Origin: Thermomonas sp.
GTDB lineage: Bacteria; Pseudomonadota; Gammaproteobacteria; Xanthomonadales; Xanthomonadaceae
Length of the DNA: 36,159 nucleotides
Reading direction: 5' to 3'
Assembly (NCBI RefSeq): GCF_020850895.1
Contig: NZ_JADZDS010000069.1
Coordinates: forward strand, 1-36,159
Part shown: one piece after another, positions 2,530 through 36,159 of the stretch
How positions within the stretch are numbered: position 1 is the first letter of the stretch
How the letters are laid out: the number at the start of each line of letters is the position of its first letter
Translations under genes and position numbers: made by a program
The notes under the pieces: generated by a model
What the model saw: only the letters and a program-made list of their open reading frames with translations
Told to the model about the DNA's origin: nothing
The model's database searches: none

Positions 2530-3090
2530 CTAGCGTGCGGAGACGCTCTCCGGGAATTCCCTTTGCAACCAGCTGTCGATCATGCGCTTTTCGTAACGCA
2601 GCGGATCACTGTCGTTGACCGAGCCTGCATGCAGCAGGAAGGCTGGATCGGTGATCCTGCGCTCGCCTTCCGCAACCACCGTGCCACTGGCATCGAGTTC
2701 GCGGAATTGAACGACCATCATCGGCGGATAGTTTTCACGGATCACACGGATATCCTGGCCTGCGGGGCTGGCCCACGGTTCGTAGCGTCCGGCCCGCTGG
2801 ATGTCGAGGATGGTCAATTCGAGGCGGTTGCCGGGTGTCAGGCGCTTGGCCGCCTGCTTGCGCATGTAGCTGGCCAGCTGGACCAGCCAGTCACCGCGCG
2901 TCGAAGCGCTGCGGTTGCTGCTGGTCCTGATGTCGCCAAACCGTGACGGATCGGACCAAGCGACGTTGACGGGTCCGGACGCCGGCAATGCACGCGGTGC
3001 GTTTGCCGCCAGCATGTCACCGCCGGTTGCACTTGCCGTGCCGGTCGCGAGGGCCAAGGCGAAGAAGAGGGAGGCCAGGCGAGGGGACAT
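2530..3090 (-). CDS. DUF3016 family exported protein
   Basis: A 186-residue protein with a Sec-type signal peptide (SPRLASLFFALALATGTASA, cleavage near residue 22), so it is probably periplasmic. The mature part resembles the DUF3016 family of proteobacterial proteins of unknown function, with the features VxWSDPxxFxDI near the start, a central block around LELTILDIQRAGRYEPW, and a C-terminal segment ending in a tryptophan and basic residues. The ATG at 3090 is preferred over one at 3135 because it puts the signal peptide at the N-terminus. It may be co-transcribed with the DUF3297 gene upstream (72 bp gap). The function is unknown. Confidence 0.75.
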   Translation of the reverse strand: MSPRLASLFFALALATGTASATGGDMLAANAPRALPASGPVNVAWSDPSRFGDIRTSSNRSASTRGDWLVQLASYMRKQAAKRLTPGNRLELTILDIQRAGRYEPWASPAGQDIRVIRENYPPMMVVQFRELDASGTVVAEGERRITDPAFLLHAGSVNDSDPLRYEKRMIDSWLQREFPESVSAR

Positions 3091-3161
3091 CGGCGTGCTC
3101 CGTTCGGGACTGGCCCCAGTCTGCTGCAAGTCCAAGCGCTGCTGGCTGAACGCAGCGAGGT

Positions 3162-3440
3162 TCAGTCAGCTGCGGTTTCGGTTTCCGTTGGCGTGTCCTT
3201 GAACCAGGCCTCGACCTTGCCGCGTACCTTGAGGGTCATCGGCATGCCGTGGCGGTCCAATGAGCGCCCCGCCTGCACCCGAATCCAACCTTCGCTGATG
3301 CAATATTCCTCGACATTGGTGCGTTCACTGCCGTTGAAGCGGATGCCGATGCCGCGCTCCAGCAGGGCTTCGTCGTGGAACTTGCTGCGCGGATCGTTGG
3401 ACAGGCGGTCGGGCGGGGTGTCGTGGGTGGCGTCGGACAT
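3162..3440 (-). CDS. DUF3297 family small protein
   Basis: A 92-residue soluble protein that matches the DUF3297 family of short conserved proteobacterial proteins. These have sometimes been mislabelled glutathione peroxidase, and there is no selenocysteine or cysteine peroxidatic motif here. Recognisable blocks are PDRLSNDPRSKFHDE, RGIGIRFNG, NVEEYCISEGWIR and LKVRGKVEAWF. The start at 3440 begins MSDATHDTPPDRLS, matching family N-termini; the in-frame ATG at 3473 adds 11 atypical residues. The gene is divergent from rsmC across a 146-bp gap that should hold both promoters. No function is known. Confidence 0.8.
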   Translation of the reverse strand: MSDATHDTPPDRLSNDPRSKFHDEALLERGIGIRFNGSERTNVEEYCISEGWIRVQAGRSLDRHGMPMTLKVRGKVEAWFKDTPTETETAAD

Positions 3441-3586
3441 GGGGCGTGGCCATGGTTTGGAGCCGTACAGCATACCTGTTGGGTGGCATCTCGCCGAGCA
3501 ACGCGATTTTGGTTGTTACGCGTACGGCGAACGTGGGTCAGTCAGTTGGATGCGGTGAATTCGTGCGCATCGCTACACTGCGCGAC

Positions 3587-4642
3587 ATGCGTACCGCGAC
3601 TCGCGACAACCCTCTCGATGCACTGCTGCATCCATTCATGGATGGCCTCCTGCGCTGGCCGCAGGACGGCGCGGCGTTGTTCCTGCGCGGGCGGGATGGC
3701 ACAGGCCTGCGTGCGCTCCGTCATCGGGAAGGCGAATGCACCCAACCGTTTCGCCCGGAAGCCATGCATCTGGAACGTGCCGGCTTCGCCTTGCTCGATG
3801 AGGATGCGCTGCCGGAAGCGGGCTTCAAGCTGGTGCTGGTGCTGCCACCACGCCAGCGCGAGGAGGCGCGCGCGTTGCTGGCCAAGGCCTGCAGGGCCGT
3901 TGCTCCGGGCGGAGTCGTCGTTGCCGCGGTCGCCAATGACGAAGGCGCCAAGTCACGCGAGGACGATCTGAAGCACTTGGCCGGTGGCGTGGCCACGCTC
4001 AGCAAGTACCACAGCCGGGTGTTCTGGACGGCGCCGGGTGCGCCGTTCGATACGGAACTGGTCGCCCGCTGGTCGCGGCTGGATGCACCGCGCTGGATCG
4101 AAGCGACCGATGTGCCCGGCGGCGGCTTCCACAGTCGCCCCGGCGTGTTCGCCTGGGATCGGGTCGACGCCGCCTCGCGCATGCTGGCGGAGGTGCTGCC
4201 GGGCGATCTGCGCGGACGGATCGCGGATCTTGGCGCGGGTTGGGGCTACCTGTCGCTGCAGGTGTTGGCGCGCTGTCCGCAGCTGGCTTCGCTGGATGTG
4301 TTCGAGGCCGATGCGCGGGCGCTTTCGCTGGCGCGGATGAATCTTCAAGGTGCCCGCGTGCCGGTGGGTTTCCACTGGCACGACGTGGTCGTCGGCGTGG
4401 ACAGTCAGTTCGATGCCATCGTCTGCAACCCACCGTTCCATGCACTTGGGCGTGGGGATCGGCCGGATATCGGCCGTGCCTTCATCGCGACGGCGTCCGC
4501 TGCGTTGAAGCCGGGTGGCAGCGTGTGGCTGGTGGCCAATCGCCATCTCCCCTACGAGGAGGCGCTGGGCAGTGCATTCGCCTCGGTGCTCACGGTGGTG
4601 CAACAGGGCGGCTTCAAGATCGTGCACGCGGTGAAGGCGTGA
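3587..4642 (+). CDS. rsmC: 16S rRNA (guanine-1207-N2) methyltransferase, RsmC-like
   Basis: A 351-residue class I SAM-dependent methyltransferase of the RsmC/RlmG type, which methylates a guanine N2 in ribosomal RNA (m2G1207 of 16S rRNA for RsmC). The length and two-lobed layout fit: a degenerate N-terminal methyltransferase-like half (to about residue 165) and a catalytic C-terminal half. The catalytic half carries the SAM-binding loop ADLGAGWGYLS and the NPPF motif (IVCNPPFHALG) typical of N-methyltransferases acting on exocyclic amines. The start at 3587 gives a family-like N-terminus; upstream in-frame codons to 3446 are not conserved-looking. Its TGA overlaps the GTG start of rsuA by 4 bp. 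RlmG (23S m2G1835) is the alternative assignment. Confidence 0.83.
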   Translation: MRTATRDNPLDALLHPFMDGLLRWPQDGAALFLRGRDGTGLRALRHREGECTQPFRPEAMHLERAGFALLDEDALPEAGFKLVLVLPPRQREEARALLAKACRAVAPGGVVVAAVANDEGAKSREDDLKHLAGGVATLSKYHSRVFWTAPGAPFDTELVARWSRLDAPRWIEATDVPGGGFHSRPGVFAWDRVDAASRMLAEVLPGDLRGRIADLGAGWGYLSLQVLARCPQLASLDVFEADARALSLARMNLQGARVPVGFHWHDVVVGVDSQFDAIVCNPPFHALGRGDRPDIGRAFIATASAALKPGGSVWLVANRHLPYEEALGSAFASVLTVVQQGGFKIVHAVKA

Positions 4643-5352
4643 AGCTGGTCAAGCACATCGCGGGCCTCGGCTACGGCAGCCGCAAGGACGTGCAGTGGAT
4701 GTTCCGCGAGGGCCGGATCACCGATGCCGATGGCGAGGTGCTCTACGCAGACGACCCACTCGATCACGACAGCATCCGCATCGACGGGGAGCCGCTGGAT
4801 CCACCGCCGGGACTGCTGCTGATGCTGCACAAGCCGGTCGGATTCACCTGTTCGACCAAGGATCCGGGACGAGTGGTGTTCGACCTGTTTCCGCCGCGTT
4901 ATCGCCACCGTGATCCGGCGCTGTCGACGGTCGGTCGCCTCGATCGCGACACCTCCGGCCTGCTGTTGCTGACCGACGATGGCCAGCTGTTGCACCGGAT
5001 CATCGCGCCGAAGTCGAAGTTGCCGAAGGTCTATCTGGCGTCGCTGGCCGATGACCTGCGCGGCGATGCGGCAGCGATCTTTGCCAGCGGCACCCTGATG
5101 CTCGATGGTGAGAAGACGCCATTGCTGCCGGCCGAGCTGGAGGTGCTGGGTACACGTCGTGCCCGCCTGACGCTGCACGAAGGCCGCTATCACCAGGTGC
5201 GACGGATGTTCGCGGCGGTCGGCAACCACGTCGCGGGATTGCACCGTGAACGGATCGGCGGATTGTTGCTGGATGATCTGCCGGCCGGGAAATGGGTCGC
5301 GTTGGACGAAGCGGCCCGCACCCGACTGTTCGCGCCGGACGCGACGGCCTAA
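4639..5352 (+). CDS. rsuA: 16S rRNA pseudouridine(516) synthase RsuA
   Basis: A 237-residue pseudouridine synthase of the RsuA family, which isomerises U516 of 16S rRNA. An N-terminal S4 RNA-binding domain (about 1-60) precedes the synthase domain. The catalytic aspartate lies in GRLDRDTSGLLLLT, and the family motif HEGRYHQVRRMFAAVG follows near the C-terminus. The start is a GTG at 4639 sharing 4 bp (GTGA) with the rsmC stop, so translation is probably coupled. The longer open frame upstream is inside rsmC and is not protein-like. Two 16S rRNA modification enzymes in one coupled pair is a sensible functional unit. The stop codon TAA overlaps the yajQ stop on the other strand. Confidence 0.9.
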   Translation: MKLVKHIAGLGYGSRKDVQWMFREGRITDADGEVLYADDPLDHDSIRIDGEPLDPPPGLLLMLHKPVGFTCSTKDPGRVVFDLFPPRYRHRDPALSTVGRLDRDTSGLLLLTDDGQLLHRIIAPKSKLPKVYLASLADDLRGDAAAIFASGTLMLDGEKTPLLPAELEVLGTRRARLTLHEGRYHQVRRMFAAVGNHVAGLHRERIGGLLLDDLPAGKWVALDEAARTRLFAPDATA

Positions 5353-5831
5353 TCCCGGAAATTGTCGAACTGCAAGGGCAGTTCGAAGTCCTTGCCGCGC
5401 AGCAAGGCCATCGCCGCCTGCAGGTCGTCGCGCTTCTTGCCGGTCACCCGCAGCTTGTCGCCATTGATCTGCGAATCGACTTTCAGCTTGGCGTCCTTGA
5501 TCGTGGCCTGGATCTTCTTCGCCAGTTCGCGTTCGATGCCCTGCTTCACCGTCACTTTCTGGCGTGCGCCGGCAAGGTTGGTTTCGATATCGCCAAAGTC
5601 CAGGCAGCGCACGTCGATCTTCCGTGCGATCAGGCGTGCGCGCAGGATGTCGGTCATCTGCTGCAGCTGGAAATCGCTGGGTGCGGATTGGGTGATGACG
5701 TTGTCCTCGCGCACGAATTTTGCGTCGACGCCCTTGAAGTCGAAGCGCGTGGTCAGCTCGCGGCTGGCTTGGTCGACCGCATTGGTGAGCTCGTGGGTGT
5801 CCACTTCGGAAATGATGTCGAACGAAGGCAT
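5349..5831 (-). CDS. yajQ: YajQ family cyclic-di-GMP-binding protein
   Basis: A 160-residue YajQ/DUF520 protein. It begins MPSFDIISEVD and has the family blocks NAVDQASRELTTRFDFKG, the APSDFQLQQM region and the C-terminal KLRVTGKKRDDLQAA. In Xanthomonas a YajQ protein is an established c-di-GMP receptor affecting virulence gene expression through a LysR-type partner; that function is family knowledge, not visible here. The full length matches the family (about 160 residues). The last 3 bp overlap the end of rsuA, which is convergent. Two diguanylate cyclases lie 3 kb away. Confidence 0.92.
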   Translation of the reverse strand: MPSFDIISEVDTHELTNAVDQASRELTTRFDFKGVDAKFVREDNVITQSAPSDFQLQQMTDILRARLIARKIDVRCLDFGDIETNLAGARQKVTVKQGIERELAKKIQATIKDAKLKVDSQINGDKLRVTGKKRDDLQAAMALLRGKDFELPLQFDNFRD

Positions 5832-5952
5832 GGCGCGGCGCAGGAAGGGCTGAGAAGGCGCTCAGGATACCTGCGCACCGATCGCCGTGCAGGCGTTGGC
5901 CGTCGGCGGCATCGAGTCCGGCGCGTGGCCGGACCCGATGCAAGCAGCGCGA

Positions 5953-7755
5953 TTACCTGCCGGAACGACGCGGCGCCAGGGTACCGGCGGCGCGAGCGCC
6001 ACGCAGGGCAGTGACGACCCCTTGCGGGCAGACATTCTGGTAGATGCAGGCAATCCATTCCGGGTGGTCGATGAACGGATTGCGGTTGCCTTGGAAGGTC
6101 TGCACCGCCTCGTTGCGCATCCGCTCGTAGTCGTCCACAGGATCTTCCTGGCTCCACTGCAGCAGCACCGACAGCAGGCCCATGTAGGCGACCGAGGCGT
6201 TGCCATTGGTGTTGACGATCAACGAGGCGTTGTCGGTCAATCGCAGATCGGGCTCGGCGTAGCCGGTGCTGGCGTTGGTGCCGCCTTCATAGCGGATGTC
6301 CATGTACAAGATGGCCCGCGCCACGTTGCCCTTCATTCCCCTCCAGGTCTGCCAGATCGAGTTGTTGGTCCAGTTGGAGTTGCCCGGGAACACGCCACTG
6401 CCGCCGCCACGGCCATTGTGGGCCGCGGTCGGATATTCGGTGCAACTGGCGTTGCAATTTCCGTACGGCTTGTTGCTGCGTGCACTGTTGTAGCTGATGT
6501 CGGAGGCCATCAGCATGTGCAGGTCGGTGTAGGCGAAATTGCTGGGACCGTCGACCGAGAAGCCCAGCGAGTTCGGCCAGGTGTGCTCGCGGTTGTAGAA
6601 ATTGTTGCCGCCACCCGCCTTCAAGTAAGGGGTGTTCTTGTAGATGTCGAGGACCTTGCCGGAATCGAGCGGGTCTTCGTCGACGAAGTCGAGGACATCC
6701 CAGGTATCGGTGGTGCTCGCCGAGTACGGGATCTTGGTGCTCACTTGGATGATGGCATGGAGGCTGGCCCGCAGCGTCGCGGCGCTGGAGGTGTTGACGC
6801 CGTTGTAATACGTGCCGCCACCACCGCTTCCGCCGCCACCGCCACCACCACCGCCACCGGAAGGTGCGGTGAAGCTGCCGGTCAGGCTGGTGCCGGAGAA
6901 CGCAGCATAGGCGCGCAGCATGACGTAGTACGTGCCGGCTTGTGCCGTCGCGATGGTGCAGCTTTCGTTGTTGCCGGACAGGTAAGGGCGGCAGTCGTAG
7001 CTGGTGGTGGTCGGCGCGCTGCCGAAGCGAACGTACATGTCGGCGTCGCCGCTGCCGCCATTGCTGGTGAACTTCAGGTTGGTGGCGCCGGCCGGCACAA
7101 CCAATGTGTAGGTCAGCGACTTGCCCGTGGCTGCGGACAGGCCGGTGACGGCAACGCCGTTCTGCAGGACAGTGCCGCCGCCACCACCGCCACCACCGCT
7201 GCCTCCGCCACTGGGCGTCTGTCCGGTGTTGCAGGCGCCGAACGAACTGGCGCGGGAGGCCTGCCAGGTGAAGTCGGCGTAATGGCTGCCGCTGCCTGCC
7301 AACTGCAGCGAGGTGCCGGAGGCGGTGGAGGATGTTTCGGATTGCGGGATCGCGGTGCTGGCGTGTCCGCTGGCCGGGCCATTGGTTGCGGTGAATGTGC
7401 CTTCGTAACTCAGGAACTGGACCAGGGTGCCGCTGGCATTGACCAGGGCGACGCCGTCAGGCGCGCCGTTCTGGATGCCGGTCGCTGCCACGGTGATGGT
7501 GCCGTAACCATTGCACTGGTTGGCGACGGTGCCGGACAGCGGCAAGGTGGCGTAGCTCTTGCCGTCGGTGCCGTTGTAGAGCACGACGCTCCAGCCCGCG
7601 AGGCTGGTGCCGGCCGGGGCCATCACTTCGACCTTTTCGGAAGTGTCAGTGTTGACGTTGTCGTAATGGAGTTCATTGATGAAGACATCGGCCTGCGCTG
7701 GGGCGGCAGCAAGCAATCCCAACGCAGCGGAAAGGGTGAAAAAGGCACAGCGCAT
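5953..7755 (-). CDS. Secreted modular endonuclease I (lamin-tail - PPC - nuclease)
   Basis: A predicted secreted nuclease of 600 residues. The order is: signal peptide (1-22, ending AQA), a lamin-tail-like beta domain (about 23-178, starting VFINELHYDN), a glycine linker (183-194), a pre-peptidase C-terminal type beta-sandwich (about 203-296, with GDADMYVRFG), a second glycine linker (300-314), and an endonuclease I domain (about 316-577). The nuclease domain keeps YNREHTWPNS at 387-396 with the catalytic histidine, and DLHMLMASD at 411-419. The last 18 residues are rich in Arg and Ala. The family degrades DNA extracellularly or in the periplasm. Type II secretion is likely but inferred. The ATG at 7755 is preferred; one at 7794 only lengthens the pre-signal region. 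Confidence 0.9.
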   Translation of the reverse strand: MRCAFFTLSAALGLLAAAPAQADVFINELHYDNVNTDTSEKVEVMAPAGTSLAGWSVVLYNGTDGKSYATLPLSGTVANQCNGYGTITVAATGIQNGAPDGVALVNASGTLVQFLSYEGTFTATNGPASGHASTAIPQSETSSTASGTSLQLAGSGSHYADFTWQASRASSFGACNTGQTPSGGGSGGGGGGGGTVLQNGVAVTGLSAATGKSLTYTLVVPAGATNLKFTSNGGSGDADMYVRFGSAPTTTSYDCRPYLSGNNESCTIATAQAGTYYVMLRAYAAFSGTSLTGSFTAPSGGGGGGGGGGSGGGGTYYNGVNTSSAATLRASLHAIIQVSTKIPYSASTTDTWDVLDFVDEDPLDSGKVLDIYKNTPYLKAGGGNNFYNREHTWPNSLGFSVDGPSNFAYTDLHMLMASDISYNSARSNKPYGNCNASCTEYPTAAHNGRGGGSGVFPGNSNWTNNSIWQTWRGMKGNVARAILYMDIRYEGGTNASTGYAEPDLRLTDNASLIVNTNGNASVAYMGLLSVLLQWSQEDPVDDYERMRNEAVQTFQGNRNPFIDHPEWIACIYQNVCPQGVVTALRGARAAGTLAPRRSGR

Positions 7756-31477: not shown

Positions 31478-34060
31478 ATGCGCATGGACAAACTCACCTC
31501 GCGCTTCCAGCAGGCCATCAGCGACGCGCAGTCGCTGGCCGTGGGTCGTGATCACACAATCATCGAACCCATCCACCTGCTTCTGGCCCTGCTCGATCAA
31601 CAGGGCGGCGGCACGCGGCCGTTGCTGTCGCAGGCGGGTGTCAACGTGGCCGATCTGCGGCTGCGCTTGGCCGAGGCGCTGGACAAGCTGCCCAAGGTCA
31701 CTGGCCAGGCCGGCAATGTGCAGGCCGGGAATGACCTGATCCGATTGCTCAACGTGACCGACAAGCTGGCCCAGCAGCGAGGCGATGCCTTCATCGCCAG
31801 CGAGCTGTTCCTGCTCGCCGCGCTGGAGGATTCCAGCGCGGCCGGCAAGGCGTTGAAGGCGGCCGGTGCGGATCGCGGCCGGCTGGAAACGGCGATTGAC
31901 ACGCTGCGCGGCGGCGAGTCGGTGCAGGATGAAAACGCCGAGGAGTCACGCCAGGCGCTGGAAAAATACACCATCGACCTGACCGCACGCGCCGAATCCG
32001 GCAAGCTCGATCCGGTGGTGGGCCGCGATGAGGAAATCCGTCGCACCATCCAGGTCTTGCAGCGCCGCACCAAGAACAATCCGGTGCTGATCGGCGAGCC
32101 GGGCGTGGGCAAGACCGCGATTGCCGAAGGTCTGGCCCAGCGCATCATCAACAACGAAGTGCCGGAAGGTTTGCGCGGCAAGCGTCTGTTGAGTCTGGAC
32201 ATGGGTGCGCTGATCGCCGGCGCGAAGTTCCGCGGCGAGTTCGAAGAGCGCCTGAAAGCGGTGCTCAATGACCTGGCAAAAAACGAAGGCCAGATCATCC
32301 TGTTCATCGATGAGCTGCACACCATGGTCGGCGCCGGCAAGGCCGACGGCGCGATGGACGCCGGCAATATGCTCAAGCCGGCGCTGGCACGCGGTGAGCT
32401 GCACTGCATCGGTGCCACCACGCTGGACGAATATCGCAAGTACGTGGAGAAGGACGCGGCGCTGGAGCGCCGCTTCCAGAAGGTGTTCGTCGGCGAGCCG
32501 TCGGTGGAAGACACCATCGCCATCCTGCGCGGTTTGAAGGAGCGCTATGCCGTGCATCACGGGGTGGAGATCACCGACCCGGCGATCGTCGCAGCGGCCA
32601 CCCTGTCCCATCGCTACATCGCCGATCGGCAATTGCCGGACAAGGCCATCGACCTGATGGATGAGGCCGCCTCGCGCATCCGCATGGAGATCGATTCCAA
32701 GCCGGAGGAGCTCGACCGCAAGGAGCGTCGGCTGATCCAGCTCAAGATCCAGCGCGAGGCCTTGAAGAAGGAGAAGGACAAGGAATCCAAGCAGCGCTTG
32801 GCCGATCTGGAAGCGGAGATCGACGTGCTCGAACGCGAATACAGCGATCTGGAGGAAGTGTGGAAGGCCGAAAAGGCGACGCTGCAAGGGGCGACCAAGA
32901 TCAAGGAACAAATCGAGGCCGCCAAGCTTGAGCTGGAAGCCGCGCAGCGCCGGCAGGACTATGCGCGCATGAGCGAACTCCAGTACGGCCAAATCCCGCA
33001 ACTTGAAAAGCAGCTGGTGGCCGCGCAGGAGGCCGAAACCCAAGGCTTCACCCTGTTGCAGGACAAGGTGACGGCCGAGGAGATCGCGCAGGTGGTGGCG
33101 CGCTGGACCGGGATTCCGGTCAGCAAGATGCTGGAAGGCGAGCGCGAGAAGCTGCTGCAGATGGAAGCGCAGTTGCATACCCGCGTGGTCGGTCAGGAGG
33201 AGGCGATCAAGGTGGTCTCCGATGCGGTGCGGCGTTCGCGCGCCGGGCTGTCCGATCCCAACCGGCCGAGTGGCTCGTTCCTGTTCCTCGGCCCCACCGG
33301 CGTGGGCAAGACCGAGCTGTGCAAGGCGCTGGCGGAGTTTTTGTTCGACTCTGCCGATGCGATGGTGCGCATCGACATGAGCGAATTCATGGAAAAGCAC
33401 GCGGTCAGTCGCATGATCGGCGCGCCGCCGGGCTATGTCGGCTATGAGGAAGGCGGCTACCTCACCGAAGCCGTGCGTAGGCGTCCGTACAGCGTGATCC
33501 TGCTGGATGAGGTCGAGAAGGCGCATCCGGACGTGTTCAACATCCTGCTGCAAGTACTCGACGACGGCCGCCTGACCGATGGGCAGGGCCGCACCGTGGA
33601 TTTCCGCAATACCGTGATCGTGATGACATCGAACCTGGGCAGCCATCAAATCCAGGAGTTGAGCAGCGACGATTCGCCTGAGGCTTACATCCAGATGAAA
33701 GCCGCGGTGATGGCCGTGGTGCAGGCGCATTTCCGTCCCGAGTTCATCAACCGGCTCGACGACATCGTGGTGTTCCACCCGCTGGACAAAAACCAGATCA
33801 AGCAGATCGCGCGAATCCAGCTGCGCGCGCTGGAAAAGCGTCTGGCCGAACGCGGCATCCGCATCGAGCTGTCCGACAAGGCTTACGAGCTACTCGGAAA
33901 CGTCGGCTTCGATCCGGTCTACGGGGCGCGGCCGCTCAAGCGCGCCATCCAGCAGCAGTTGGAAAACCCGTTGGCGCAGGAGATCCTGGCCGGCCGTTTC
34001 GGCAACGGCGACATGGTGAGGGTGGAGGCCGAGGGCGGGAAGCTGGTGTTCGGAAGGTAA
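31478..34060 (+). CDS. clpB: ATP-dependent disaggregase chaperone ClpB
   Basis: An 860-residue Hsp104-class AAA+ protein that extracts polypeptides from aggregates together with DnaK. It has the N domain (1-145), NBD1 with Walker A GEPGVGKT at 206-213, the coiled-coil M domain (about 405-525, rich in KEKDKESKQ), and NBD2 with Walker A GPTGVGKT at 605-612 and the ClpB/HSP100 motifs. Positions agree with E. coli ClpB to within a residue. It starts [14 protein letters not shown] (E. coli MRLDRLTNKF), which supports 31478. The gene is intact; a partial second copy from a different clpB lineage lies 1.3 kb downstream (separate entry). Confidence 0.97.
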
Positions 34061-34203
34061 GAATCCAGGCGCAACACGGCCGATTATTGAAGCGTGCGCG
34101 GTGTCGCTGCTCGATTCCTGGCGTGCTTGGTGCCCTCAATCTTGGTCCTTGCACCCGCGCCCGCCAGCGCATCTCCAGCAGCGGCGGGCCGGGCAGGGGC
34201 TGG
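34027..34203. repeat. Direct repeat, left copy (clpB 3' end plus 3' end of next gene)
   Basis: 177 bp that recur at 35587-35761 in the same orientation with my by-eye estimate of 85-90 % identity and a 42-bp identical block at the right end. It contains the last clpB codons, the clpB stop, and the last about 25 codons of the minus-strand gene that now lies intact at 35695. In this left copy that gene's stop is mutated away and its coding is cut off at 34203, where transposase sequence begins. Confidence 0.8.
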
Positions 34204-34458
34204 TTGCGTTCGAGGCCAAGTGGGACGGCGAGTACTTGCCGATCAGCCAATCCTGGCAATGCAATTGGCCGCGGCTGACCCCGTTCTTCGACCACCCGGT
34301 CGAGATCCGCAAGGTGATCTACACCACCAATGCGATCGAGTCGGCGAACATGAGTCTGCGCAAGTTGACCAAGAACCGTGATGCGTTCCCGAGCGACGAA
34401 GCGCTGTTGCAGTTGTTCTGCCTGGCGCTACGCAACATCAGCAAGAAGTGGACGATCC
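34204..34458 (+). mobile_element. IS256-family transposase remnant (C-terminal part)
   Basis: One frame (from the TTC at 34209) reads FEAKWDGEYLPISQSWQCNW, then LTPFFDHPVEIRKVIYTTNAIE, SANMSLRKLTKNRDAFPSDE and ALLQLFCLALRNISKKWT. This is the well-conserved C-terminal region of IS256/mutator-type transposases, including the third catalytic glutamate in TTNAIESxN. The N-terminal two-thirds and both inverted-repeat ends are missing, and the frame continues into unrelated sequence after KKWT. It is a dead fragment. Confidence 0.85.
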
Positions 34459-34800
34459 GCTGGCCACGCTGCCGAGGGCGAACACTGAAAGCCGACCCGA
34501 TGCAGCCAGGATTCCGCAGGCTTGCGCTTGGCGCGCTGTGGGGACACTCCGAAGAATGGCTGCTGACATCGCCGCTGCATGCCCCCGCGACCCCGAAATC
34601 CCTGCTGTGGACAGCCGGTCCTTGCTCAAAGCGGTCGCTTGCACGACCGAAACCTACCCGGCAGACTGGCCGAAAAGAGCGTTTGTACTTCCTATGCACA
34701 CATCGATGGTGGCGACTGACACGATGCTCCCGGACCACGCTGTCGGGCGGACCTGCGCGAAGTGCCGCACAGACCACGTAATTTCTGGTTGAGTTGAGCG
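34459..34800. other. Unassigned sequence between transposase remnant and next gene
   Basis: About 340 bp in which several frames are open on both strands, but none has a good start, ribosome-binding site or recognisable family. The sequence is a little less GC-rich near its right end. I see no inverted-repeat terminus of an insertion sequence. It is probably debris of the rearrangement. Confidence 0.4.
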
Positions 34801-35316
34801 ATGCGGGACTGGCTGTGGATCGTGGTGGTGATTGTTGGCGTGCTCGCTGCTGGCATGGTGCGCGAACGATGGCGCCTGCGCGCCATGGAGCGGTTTGTCA
34901 TGCAGCGCGGTTTTACCCTGCATTCGCCATTCATTCCAGGCGAACACCCGCCGATGGCGGCACTGGCTGAGCAACTTGAAGGGCGGCGCGCCACACGTTG
35001 GGGAGCGGGGATCACGGGGGTGATTGACGGGCTCGAGATCACCGTTGCCGAGCTTGAGACGCCAGCTCGCGGCAGCGACGGAACGGGATCCCTCAATACC
35101 GTAGGCATCTGGTGGGTCATGGTCGCGTGGCCGCTCGGCCCGAACGCAGTGGCCACCGATCCAATCGGGCCGTGGGAGCATGGCGGCGAGCTGACTCGCC
35201 AAGGTCATTGGGCCGCTTGGCGGCTGCGTGGCAACCTTACGCAGGCCAATGTCGAGGCCTTGCTGGCACATCTGCCATCGGCCCGTCGCCAATTCGAGCC
35301 AGGACGCAATCGGTAA
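34801..35316 (+). CDS. Hypothetical membrane-anchored protein within the rearranged segment
   Basis: A 171-residue protein starting [20 protein letters not shown], one N-terminal membrane helix, followed by [24 protein letters not shown] and a soluble part containing [24 protein letters not shown] and a W-rich segment ([14 protein letters not shown]). The composition is protein-like and the frame is uninterrupted. The ribosome-binding site is weak (GAG at -8). I do not recognise a family. It is the only apparently intact gene between the two direct repeats, so it may be cargo of whatever event brought the segment in. Confidence 0.6.
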
Positions 35317-35333
35317 GAACGGCACGGCAGCTC

Positions 35334-35616
35334 TATCTCACCGAAGCCGTGCGCCGCCGCCCGTACAGCGTGATCCTGCTGGATGAGGTGGAGAAAGCAC
35401 ATCCGGACGTGTTCAACATCCTGCTGCAGGTGCTCGACGACGGCCGTCTGACCGACGGCCAGGGCCGCCGCATCCAGCTGCGCGCACTGGAAAAGCGGCT
35501 GGCCGAACGCGGCATCCGCATCGAACTGAGCGATGCGGTCTTCGACCTGCTCGGCAACGTCGGCTTTGATCCGGTCTACGGTGCACGGCCGAGGGCGGCA
35601 AACGGGTGTTCGGAAG
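35334..35616 (+). pseudogene. Remnant of a second clpB, with two internal deletions
   Basis: Three pieces of clpB are joined. The first, 35334-35468, corresponds to 33458-33592 ([20 protein letters not shown] onwards). The second, 35469-35591, corresponds to 33812-33934 ([20 protein letters not shown] onwards). The third runs from about 35587 and matches from 34027 (the last codons). The deletions are 219 bp (in frame) and 97 bp (frameshift, with GGCCG shared at both edges), and the stop codon is lost. Piece one has 12 synonymous codon differences and no amino-acid change in 45 codons. Piece two has 11 synonymous and 4 mostly conservative changes in 41. All of the gene before residue 661 is missing. 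Confidence 0.9.
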
Positions 35617-35761
35617 ACAAGGATCCACGCGCAACGTGGTCGATTTTGAAGCGTGCGCGGTGTCGCTGCTCGATTCCTGGCGCGCCTGGTGCCCTCATTC
35701 CTGCCCATACACCCGCACCCGCCAGCGCATCTCCAGCAGCGGCGGGCCGGGCAGGGGCTGG
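35587..35761. repeat. Direct repeat, right copy
   Basis: 175 bp matching 34027-34203. Here the sequence runs on without a break into the minus-strand gene whose stop is at 35695, so this copy is the undisturbed end of that gene. It also carries the decayed final codons of the clpB remnant. Confidence 0.8.
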
Positions 35762-36159
35762 CCCTGCGTGTCGGAGATCTGGCTGGGCGCGGTCCAGGGG
35801 CTCCAGCCGGCTTTCGGGTCGGGGTTGCGTGGCATGCTGGGGCTGAACAGTTCGTCACGCGAGCCCTCGGGGCCACGGATGCGGGCCACCACCAGCCGGT
35901 TGCCTGCCCGGATGAGCGGGCCTTGCAGGGCCGGTATCACCAATTGATCGGCCTCTTGTCGAACCTTGTCGGGCAACAGCAGCGCCGTCATGCGGGTGCT
36001 CGAGGTGTTCACCTCCACATCCAGCCAGTCGCGCAGCCCCTTCGCCGGCGCATGCGCTTGCGCCACGCGGAACTCCAGCATCAGCTGGACCTGCGCATTG
36101 CCGACCATCACCGGGCGCTCGCGCAGTTGCATCCAGCCCCACACCGCCGTGGCCAGCAG
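35695..36159 (-). CDS. Unrecognised protein, C-terminal part (cut by window edge)
   Basis: The frame is open from the window edge to a TGA at 35695, giving at least 154 residues. Near the visible start is a hydrophobic [10 protein letters not shown], perhaps the end of a membrane helix. Then comes a beta-rich soluble part with [20 protein letters not shown], the segment [20 protein letters not shown] and a proline-rich C-terminus ([20 protein letters not shown]). A start codon may lie at 36144 (GTG) or beyond the window. It is tail-to-tail with clpB in the ancestral order. No family recognised. Confidence 0.6.

Follow-up and report, generated by a model that had tools for sequence, protein, structure and literature searches.

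Strings of orphaned 3' regions are found at Rhs loci, and cdiA loci offer a parallel to them. The Rhs strings are named in a study of the effector-immunity clusters of the Vibrio cholerae type VI secretion system (T6SS), which proposes successive displacement with one-sided homologous anchoring and reports that multiple alleles within one genome do not cluster together (PMC5361080). A laboratory counterpart is Escherichia coli lacZ, for which a study of homology-facilitated illegitimate recombination describes integrations by a circle whose single crossover left duplicated gene ends of 109-950 bp in 14 sequenced clones (PMC3240628). Here we describe a locus of Thermomonas sp. (assembly GCF_020850895.1) at which truncated 3' ends of clpB, a heat-shock gene that encodes a housekeeping chaperone, lie downstream of an intact clpB among genes of foreign appearance. 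The window, i.e., the whole stretch of DNA analyzed, is 36,159 nucleotides long and comprises all of contig NZ_JADZDS010000069.1 (C69), one of the 146 contigs of a draft assembly with 3.0% contamination; from a terminal overlap we infer that the array continues onto a second contig, C13. We read the locus as a scar left when DNA was added by recombination, at least twice, within the 3' part of clpB, and we assign this reading a probability of about 0.68. The features that matter most to it are listed below, where A, B and C denote three clpB 3' ends and the opposing gene is a reverse-strand gene whose 3' end faces that of clpB.

31478..34060, forward strand: intact clpB, an open frame of 860 amino acids (aa), whose 3' end is copy A
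34027..34203, forward strand: left repeat, made up of the clpB 3' end, an intergenic stretch and ~21 codons of the opposing gene's 3' tail
35333..35620, forward strand: clpB relic B, in which clpB 33457-33592, 33812-33934 and then 34027 onward are joined
35587..35761, forward strand: right repeat, made up of the end of relic B, an intergenic stretch and the opposing gene's 3' end
36033..36159, no strand assigned: contig overlap, 127 bases exactly identical to the end of C13
C13:15894-16209, same direction as A and B: clpB relic C, 316 bases, 84.8% identical to clpB
C13, order in the direction of the window: 173-aa open reading frame (ORF), 366-aa gene, relic C, btuF-like gene, metB-like remnant, kef-like gene

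The mechanism is already known; the locus is unusual. As at the Rhs loci named in the V. cholerae study, orphaned 3' ends stand behind a single full-length gene, but Rhs genes combine a constant 5' part with a variable 3' part, whereas the end of ClpB is conserved. In the T6SS arrays as that study presents them, incoming DNA anchored through a conserved sequence takes the place of a gene's 3' part and shifts the older parts and their neighbours downstream, which is what we propose here; the displaced gene there is a secreted effector, however, while here it is a housekeeping chaperone, and the libraries searched gave no toxin or immunity match for the cargo proteins. The V. cholerae alleles do not cluster in that account, whereas clustering of the clpB copies is left undecided by our trees. 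The lacZ integrations share with our locus a duplicated gene-end fragment, the 316 bp of relic C falling in the range of 109-950 bp, but they arose in the laboratory from a plasmid-borne lacZ end, whereas the copies here are ~10-15% diverged and would record at least two stacked events. Among the papers listed by searches naming clpB, no title or abstract opening presents clpB as an insertion site, within a coverage that excludes most subscription journals.

In the mechanism that we propose, DNA of other lineages in which a clpB 3' end was joined to other genes, most simply as a circle, would recombine by crossover with the clpB already present; the incoming 3' end would become that of the working gene, and the former end, cut at its 5' side, would be pushed downstream beside the cargo. 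A first event would have brought in the opposing gene, the 173-aa ORF and the 366-aa gene and displaced the native end, relic C, which still abuts the btuF-like gene, and a second would have brought in an opposing-gene tail, a piece of an IS256 transposase and a 171-aa ORF and displaced relic B, which would afterwards have lost 219 and 97 bases through short-repeat deletions. Given the adjacency of C69 and C13, the locus holds three 3' ends of clpB that all point the same way, the full-length gene ending in A being followed by the two truncated ends B and C, with 4,489 bases (~4.5 kb of accessory DNA) separating relic C from the stop codon of the working gene. The stop codon of relic C overlaps the start of the btuF-like gene (a Pfam Peripla_BP_2 match; the name btuF is ours) as TGATG, and the working clpB joins btuF by TGATG in G006, G018 and G011; in G005 the two are joined via TAATG, with ~120 bases of btuF in the sequence examined, and in a fifth region, that of G014, clpB is followed by a btuF remnant. 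Because the direct clpB-btuF junction recurs in 4 of the 23 same-genus regions (one further genus genome, G023, was left out of the survey, its clpB lying at a contig end), relic C most likely represents, judged from these comparisons, the clpB end native to this lineage, and the ancestral empty site would thus be clpB-btuF and not clpB-opposing gene. The end that would be the oldest stands beside its native downstream neighbour, through a junction like that of G006, G018, G011 and G005.

The sequence-only reading from which this work started had described two direct-orientation copies at 34027-34203 and 35587-35761, and the exact alignment that it proposed as a check bears them out: they are 88.7% identical over 177 columns, with 18 mismatches and 2 gap openings (E 4e-59 in a 24.8-kb self-comparison), i.e., ~11% of positions differ, and their longest common exact runs are 44, 37 and 12 bases. 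A foreign-looking segment does lie between these direct repeats, and its three reported components were recovered, the IS256 transposase remnant by Pfam and NCBIfam matches, the clpB remnant by Pfam AAA_2 and ClpB_D2-small, and the gene at 34801-35316 as an open 171-aa frame. The two longest of these runs, 44 and 37 bases, would permit recombination on rare occasions, and we accept the prediction that crossing-over between the repeats would remove ~1.56 kb and leave clpB adjoining the opposing gene. That junction is, however, probably not the ancestral empty site for which it had been taken, the clpB-btuF junction being present in relatives and again behind relic C; it would be at best an intermediate state. 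The segment is likewise only part of the insert, for the accessory region extends onto C13 as far as the second clpB relic, and the opposing gene itself belongs to the accessory region. The left repeat does end near 34203, but less sharply than had been described, since similarity to ISXax1 starts at ~34187, within the repeat, so that the junction can be placed within ~17 bases over which the opposing gene and the transposase are imperfectly alike (the opposing-gene tail in this repeat is 81% identical over 21 aa). An arrangement shared by all relatives, named beforehand as the outcome that would count against the proposal, was not found: a second clpB 3' end occurs in 0/23 same-genus regions, three of them shortened by contig ends, and in 0/5 same-order regions. 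Relic B is 90% identical to clpB over 33457-33592 and 85% over 33812-33934, and the alignment coordinates give junction deletions of 219 and 97 bases, both at short microhomologies (3-5 bases at the first, depending on the copy taken as parent, and 5 bases at the second). On these alignments the repeat pair is not a recent duplication, because ~11% of its positions have diverged and the clpB pieces of relic B differ from the working gene mainly at third codon positions.

The DNA that would have arrived with the clpB ends includes, in the window, the following features.

34187..34457, forward strand: internal fragment of an IS256-family transposase, matching ISXax1 aa 296-385 of 409
34801..35316, forward strand: 171-aa ORF with a predicted N-terminal helix and an alpha/beta part, in no known family
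35695..36159, reverse strand, running off the contig: opposing gene, 243 aa, whose first 131 codons are at C13:18333-18725

None of the other 24 genomes of the genus holds a match to the opposing gene or the 171-aa ORF, and the 143-base stretch behind clpB gave only two short weak matches in them, both in G008. In the family samples (297 genomes, our own included), the opposing protein has a single match outside its own genome (32%, E 2e-4) and the 366-aa protein has three (31-33%, E 3e-5 to 1e-4); the 171-aa protein has none outside its own genome in either these or the order samples (328 genomes, our own included), and the 154-aa part of the opposing protein has one in the latter (40%, E 4e-4). 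By these searches the accessory genes are without a convincing relative in those samples of genus, family and order that were searched. Apart from the transposase piece, the cargo proteins matched no family above its cut-off: the 366-aa protein has a match to DUF2127 that falls under the cut-off, and the two parts of the opposing protein, each scanned separately, matched nothing in Pfam, NCBIfam, PHROGs or PADLOC. We read the 171-aa protein as probably membrane-located from its hydrophobic N-terminus; the structure model of this protein is of low confidence (mean pLDDT 61). Hydrophobic stretches suggest the same for the opposing protein, and the 366-aa protein, too, is in our reading a putative membrane protein. 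We considered and set aside an origin of the cargo on plasmids or in phages: no plasmid match was found for the 171-aa protein, the 366-aa protein or the 154-aa piece of the opposing protein, and the first two, which were the ones compared with IMG/VR, had no match there either.

A similar layout could arise if the clpB 3' end and the opposing gene were duplicated in tandem on the spot, after which other DNA was inserted and the copies decayed neutrally; the points for this alternative are gathered here together with those against additive insertions. The opposing-gene 3' end follows both A and B. None of the 22 relatives is as close to relic C (best G013, 84.4%) as A is (84.8%); in trees C does not group clearly with G006/G017, and it stands beside A without support. 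The trees also allow A and B as sisters (approximately unbiased (AU) test, p 0.39), and just 3 of the 22 relatives are closer than A to the second piece of B, which leaves room for a local origin. The relic pieces are too short to give support in trees, which allow C to group with G006/G017 or with A, and A to group with B. Moreover, no donor genome was found with clpB beside the opposing gene, the neighbourhood of C69 and C13 is itself deduced from sequence, and 15 of the 23 same-genus regions have no btuF match in the stretch examined. A foreign origin of the present clpB 3' end, which our mechanism would require, has weak proof: nucleotides 451-2115 of clpB are sister to those of G006/G017 (support 99/97), and the best tree of nucleotides 2116-2574 lacks this kinship, yet the AU test does not reject the grouping there (p 0.10), and a mean pairwise identity of 82.7%, versus 82.9-89.4% elsewhere, places the 3' part with the least conserved stretches of the gene. 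A maximum chi-square scan placed a break near nucleotide 2193 that was reached by 0 of 2000 permutations, but variable sites cluster along clpB and we take the break as suggestive only. On the other side, the 13 differences that separate A from the first piece of B (136 bases) are purely synonymous, 12 of them lying at third codon positions, and 14 of the 22 relatives are closer to this piece than A is; the second piece differs from A at third positions in 12 of 18 cases, with 4 amino-acid changes. A and C differ at third positions in 30 of 48 cases, with 15 amino-acid changes, and this share, 0.62, is also the average over that stretch for 231 pairs of functional genes within the genus (0.62, s.d. 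0.06). As compared here, the copies show the kind of divergence seen among working clpB genes of separate species, a pattern that speaks against duplication in place and subsequent decay; neutral decay after a local duplication is disfavoured because it does not predict the third-position shares observed, and a local duplication alone does not import unrelated genes. Third-position divergence thus speaks for an origin of the copies in different lineages, for which the trees provide no support and C remains nearest to A, and we consider the local alternative unlikely. Residues invariant among A and the 22 relatives are changed at 6 of 62 positions in C and 1 of 67 in B (Fisher test, one-sided p 0.046, two-sided 0.055), a difference that fits a longer decay of C than of B.

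Genomic islands use the 3' ends of other genes as attachment sites and restore the gene on entry, and site-specific integration at the clpB 3' end, with each element restoring the gene, would fit both the layout of displaced ends beside a restored gene and the presence of other cargo in the clpB-btuF interval of G017, G020 and G021. That cargo, however, is not accompanied by a duplicated clpB end, and neither mark of an integrase island was found: the frames scanned between A and C hold no integrase-like family, and in place of short identical edge repeats there are long, diverged ones (85-90% identical) with different starts and no short identical core. We regard such integration as improbable. 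Still more improbable, in our estimate, is an artefact of assembly or binning in which clpB relics of another species were misjoined in the draft. It is brought to mind by the fragmentation and contamination of the assembly and by the 127-base overlap that ends C69, which we read as an assembly-graph branch, but relic B and both repeats lie within one contig, relic C lies inside C13, a contig with a kef-like gene 96.8% identical to its counterpart in G017, and a misjoin would not create the internal deletions of relic B. The branch point probably falls within the opposing gene and could reflect strain variation. The transposase piece at the left edge of the segment raises the further idea of an IS256-driven insertion, as a composite transposon or by rearrangement mediated by the insertion sequence. 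The piece matches Pfam Transposase_mut (E 2.7e-14) and NCBIfam transpos_IS256 (E 1.4e-19, 70 bits versus a cut-off of 150), but just aa 296-385 of 409 are left, i.e., ~90 internal aa and not a complete transposase; no similar DNA occurs elsewhere in the draft assembly, and the segment is bounded by clpB ends. From the truncation of the transposase, terminal inverted repeats are presumably absent as well, although no search aimed at them was made around 34187-34457. We give hardly any credence to this explanation, and the piece, an internal fragment, is most likely cargo rather than agent.

Whatever the origin of the relics, ClpB stays intact, and we give the array no function. The protein is 89-93% identical to 22 full-length same-genus ClpB proteins, and the nearest ClpB among the named loci listed are 85-88% identical (Lysobacter, Arenimonas, Pseudoxanthomonas, Xanthomonas); 1 of the 80 named loci listed has extra clpB-like matches, 46-47% identical, which we read as a different Clp gene. 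The clpB of G009 (L060) aligns in three pieces, which may reflect sequencing errors or a broken gene.

The interval between clpB and the kef-like gene (Pfam Na_H_Exchanger and TrkA_N; the name kef is ours) varies among relatives. The kef-like gene lies downstream in 20 of the 23 regions, and the remaining three are interrupted by contig ends. The cargo of G017, G020 and G021 occupies ~0.85 to 4.85 kb between clpB and btuF. In G017 (L039:2669-6494) it includes a protein-kinase gene and an FHA-domain gene and represents a second, unrelated cargo at the clpB-btuF site; the frames of G020 (L043, reverse complement, ~2738-6586) look like those of this kinase/FHA cargo, and a 221-aa frame in cargo of this type, taken as a sigma factor, has no Pfam match. 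Just past the btuF-like gene on C13, the metB-like remnant (L035:5720-6890) matches Cys_Met_Meta_PP, with 101 of 423 residues aligning; G014 has a 423-aa relative in the same interval, which thus loses genes as well as gaining them. Along clpB, G006 and G017 share 96-100% identity, but the kef-like protein of the window genome is 67% identical to that of G006 and 97% identical to that of G017, a contrast that suggests recombination farther downstream too.

We put forward only tentatively, and as rather doubtful, the extension of these observations to the whole genus, in which the clpB 3' end would capture genes time and again without an integrase. Passing DNA with a clpB tail of its own would be added behind a clpB restored as a hybrid; the locus would thereby act as a natural gene trap through which species exchange the C-terminal end of ClpB, and the interval to kef would record successive arrivals. 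If the reading as additive insertions is true, the locus carries a caution, namely that direct repeats flanking foreign DNA need not indicate a mobile element; the relics then supply the relative order in which the orphan genes arrived, and strings of displaced gene ends, known from toxin loci, can form behind a conserved housekeeping gene that shares homology with incoming DNA.

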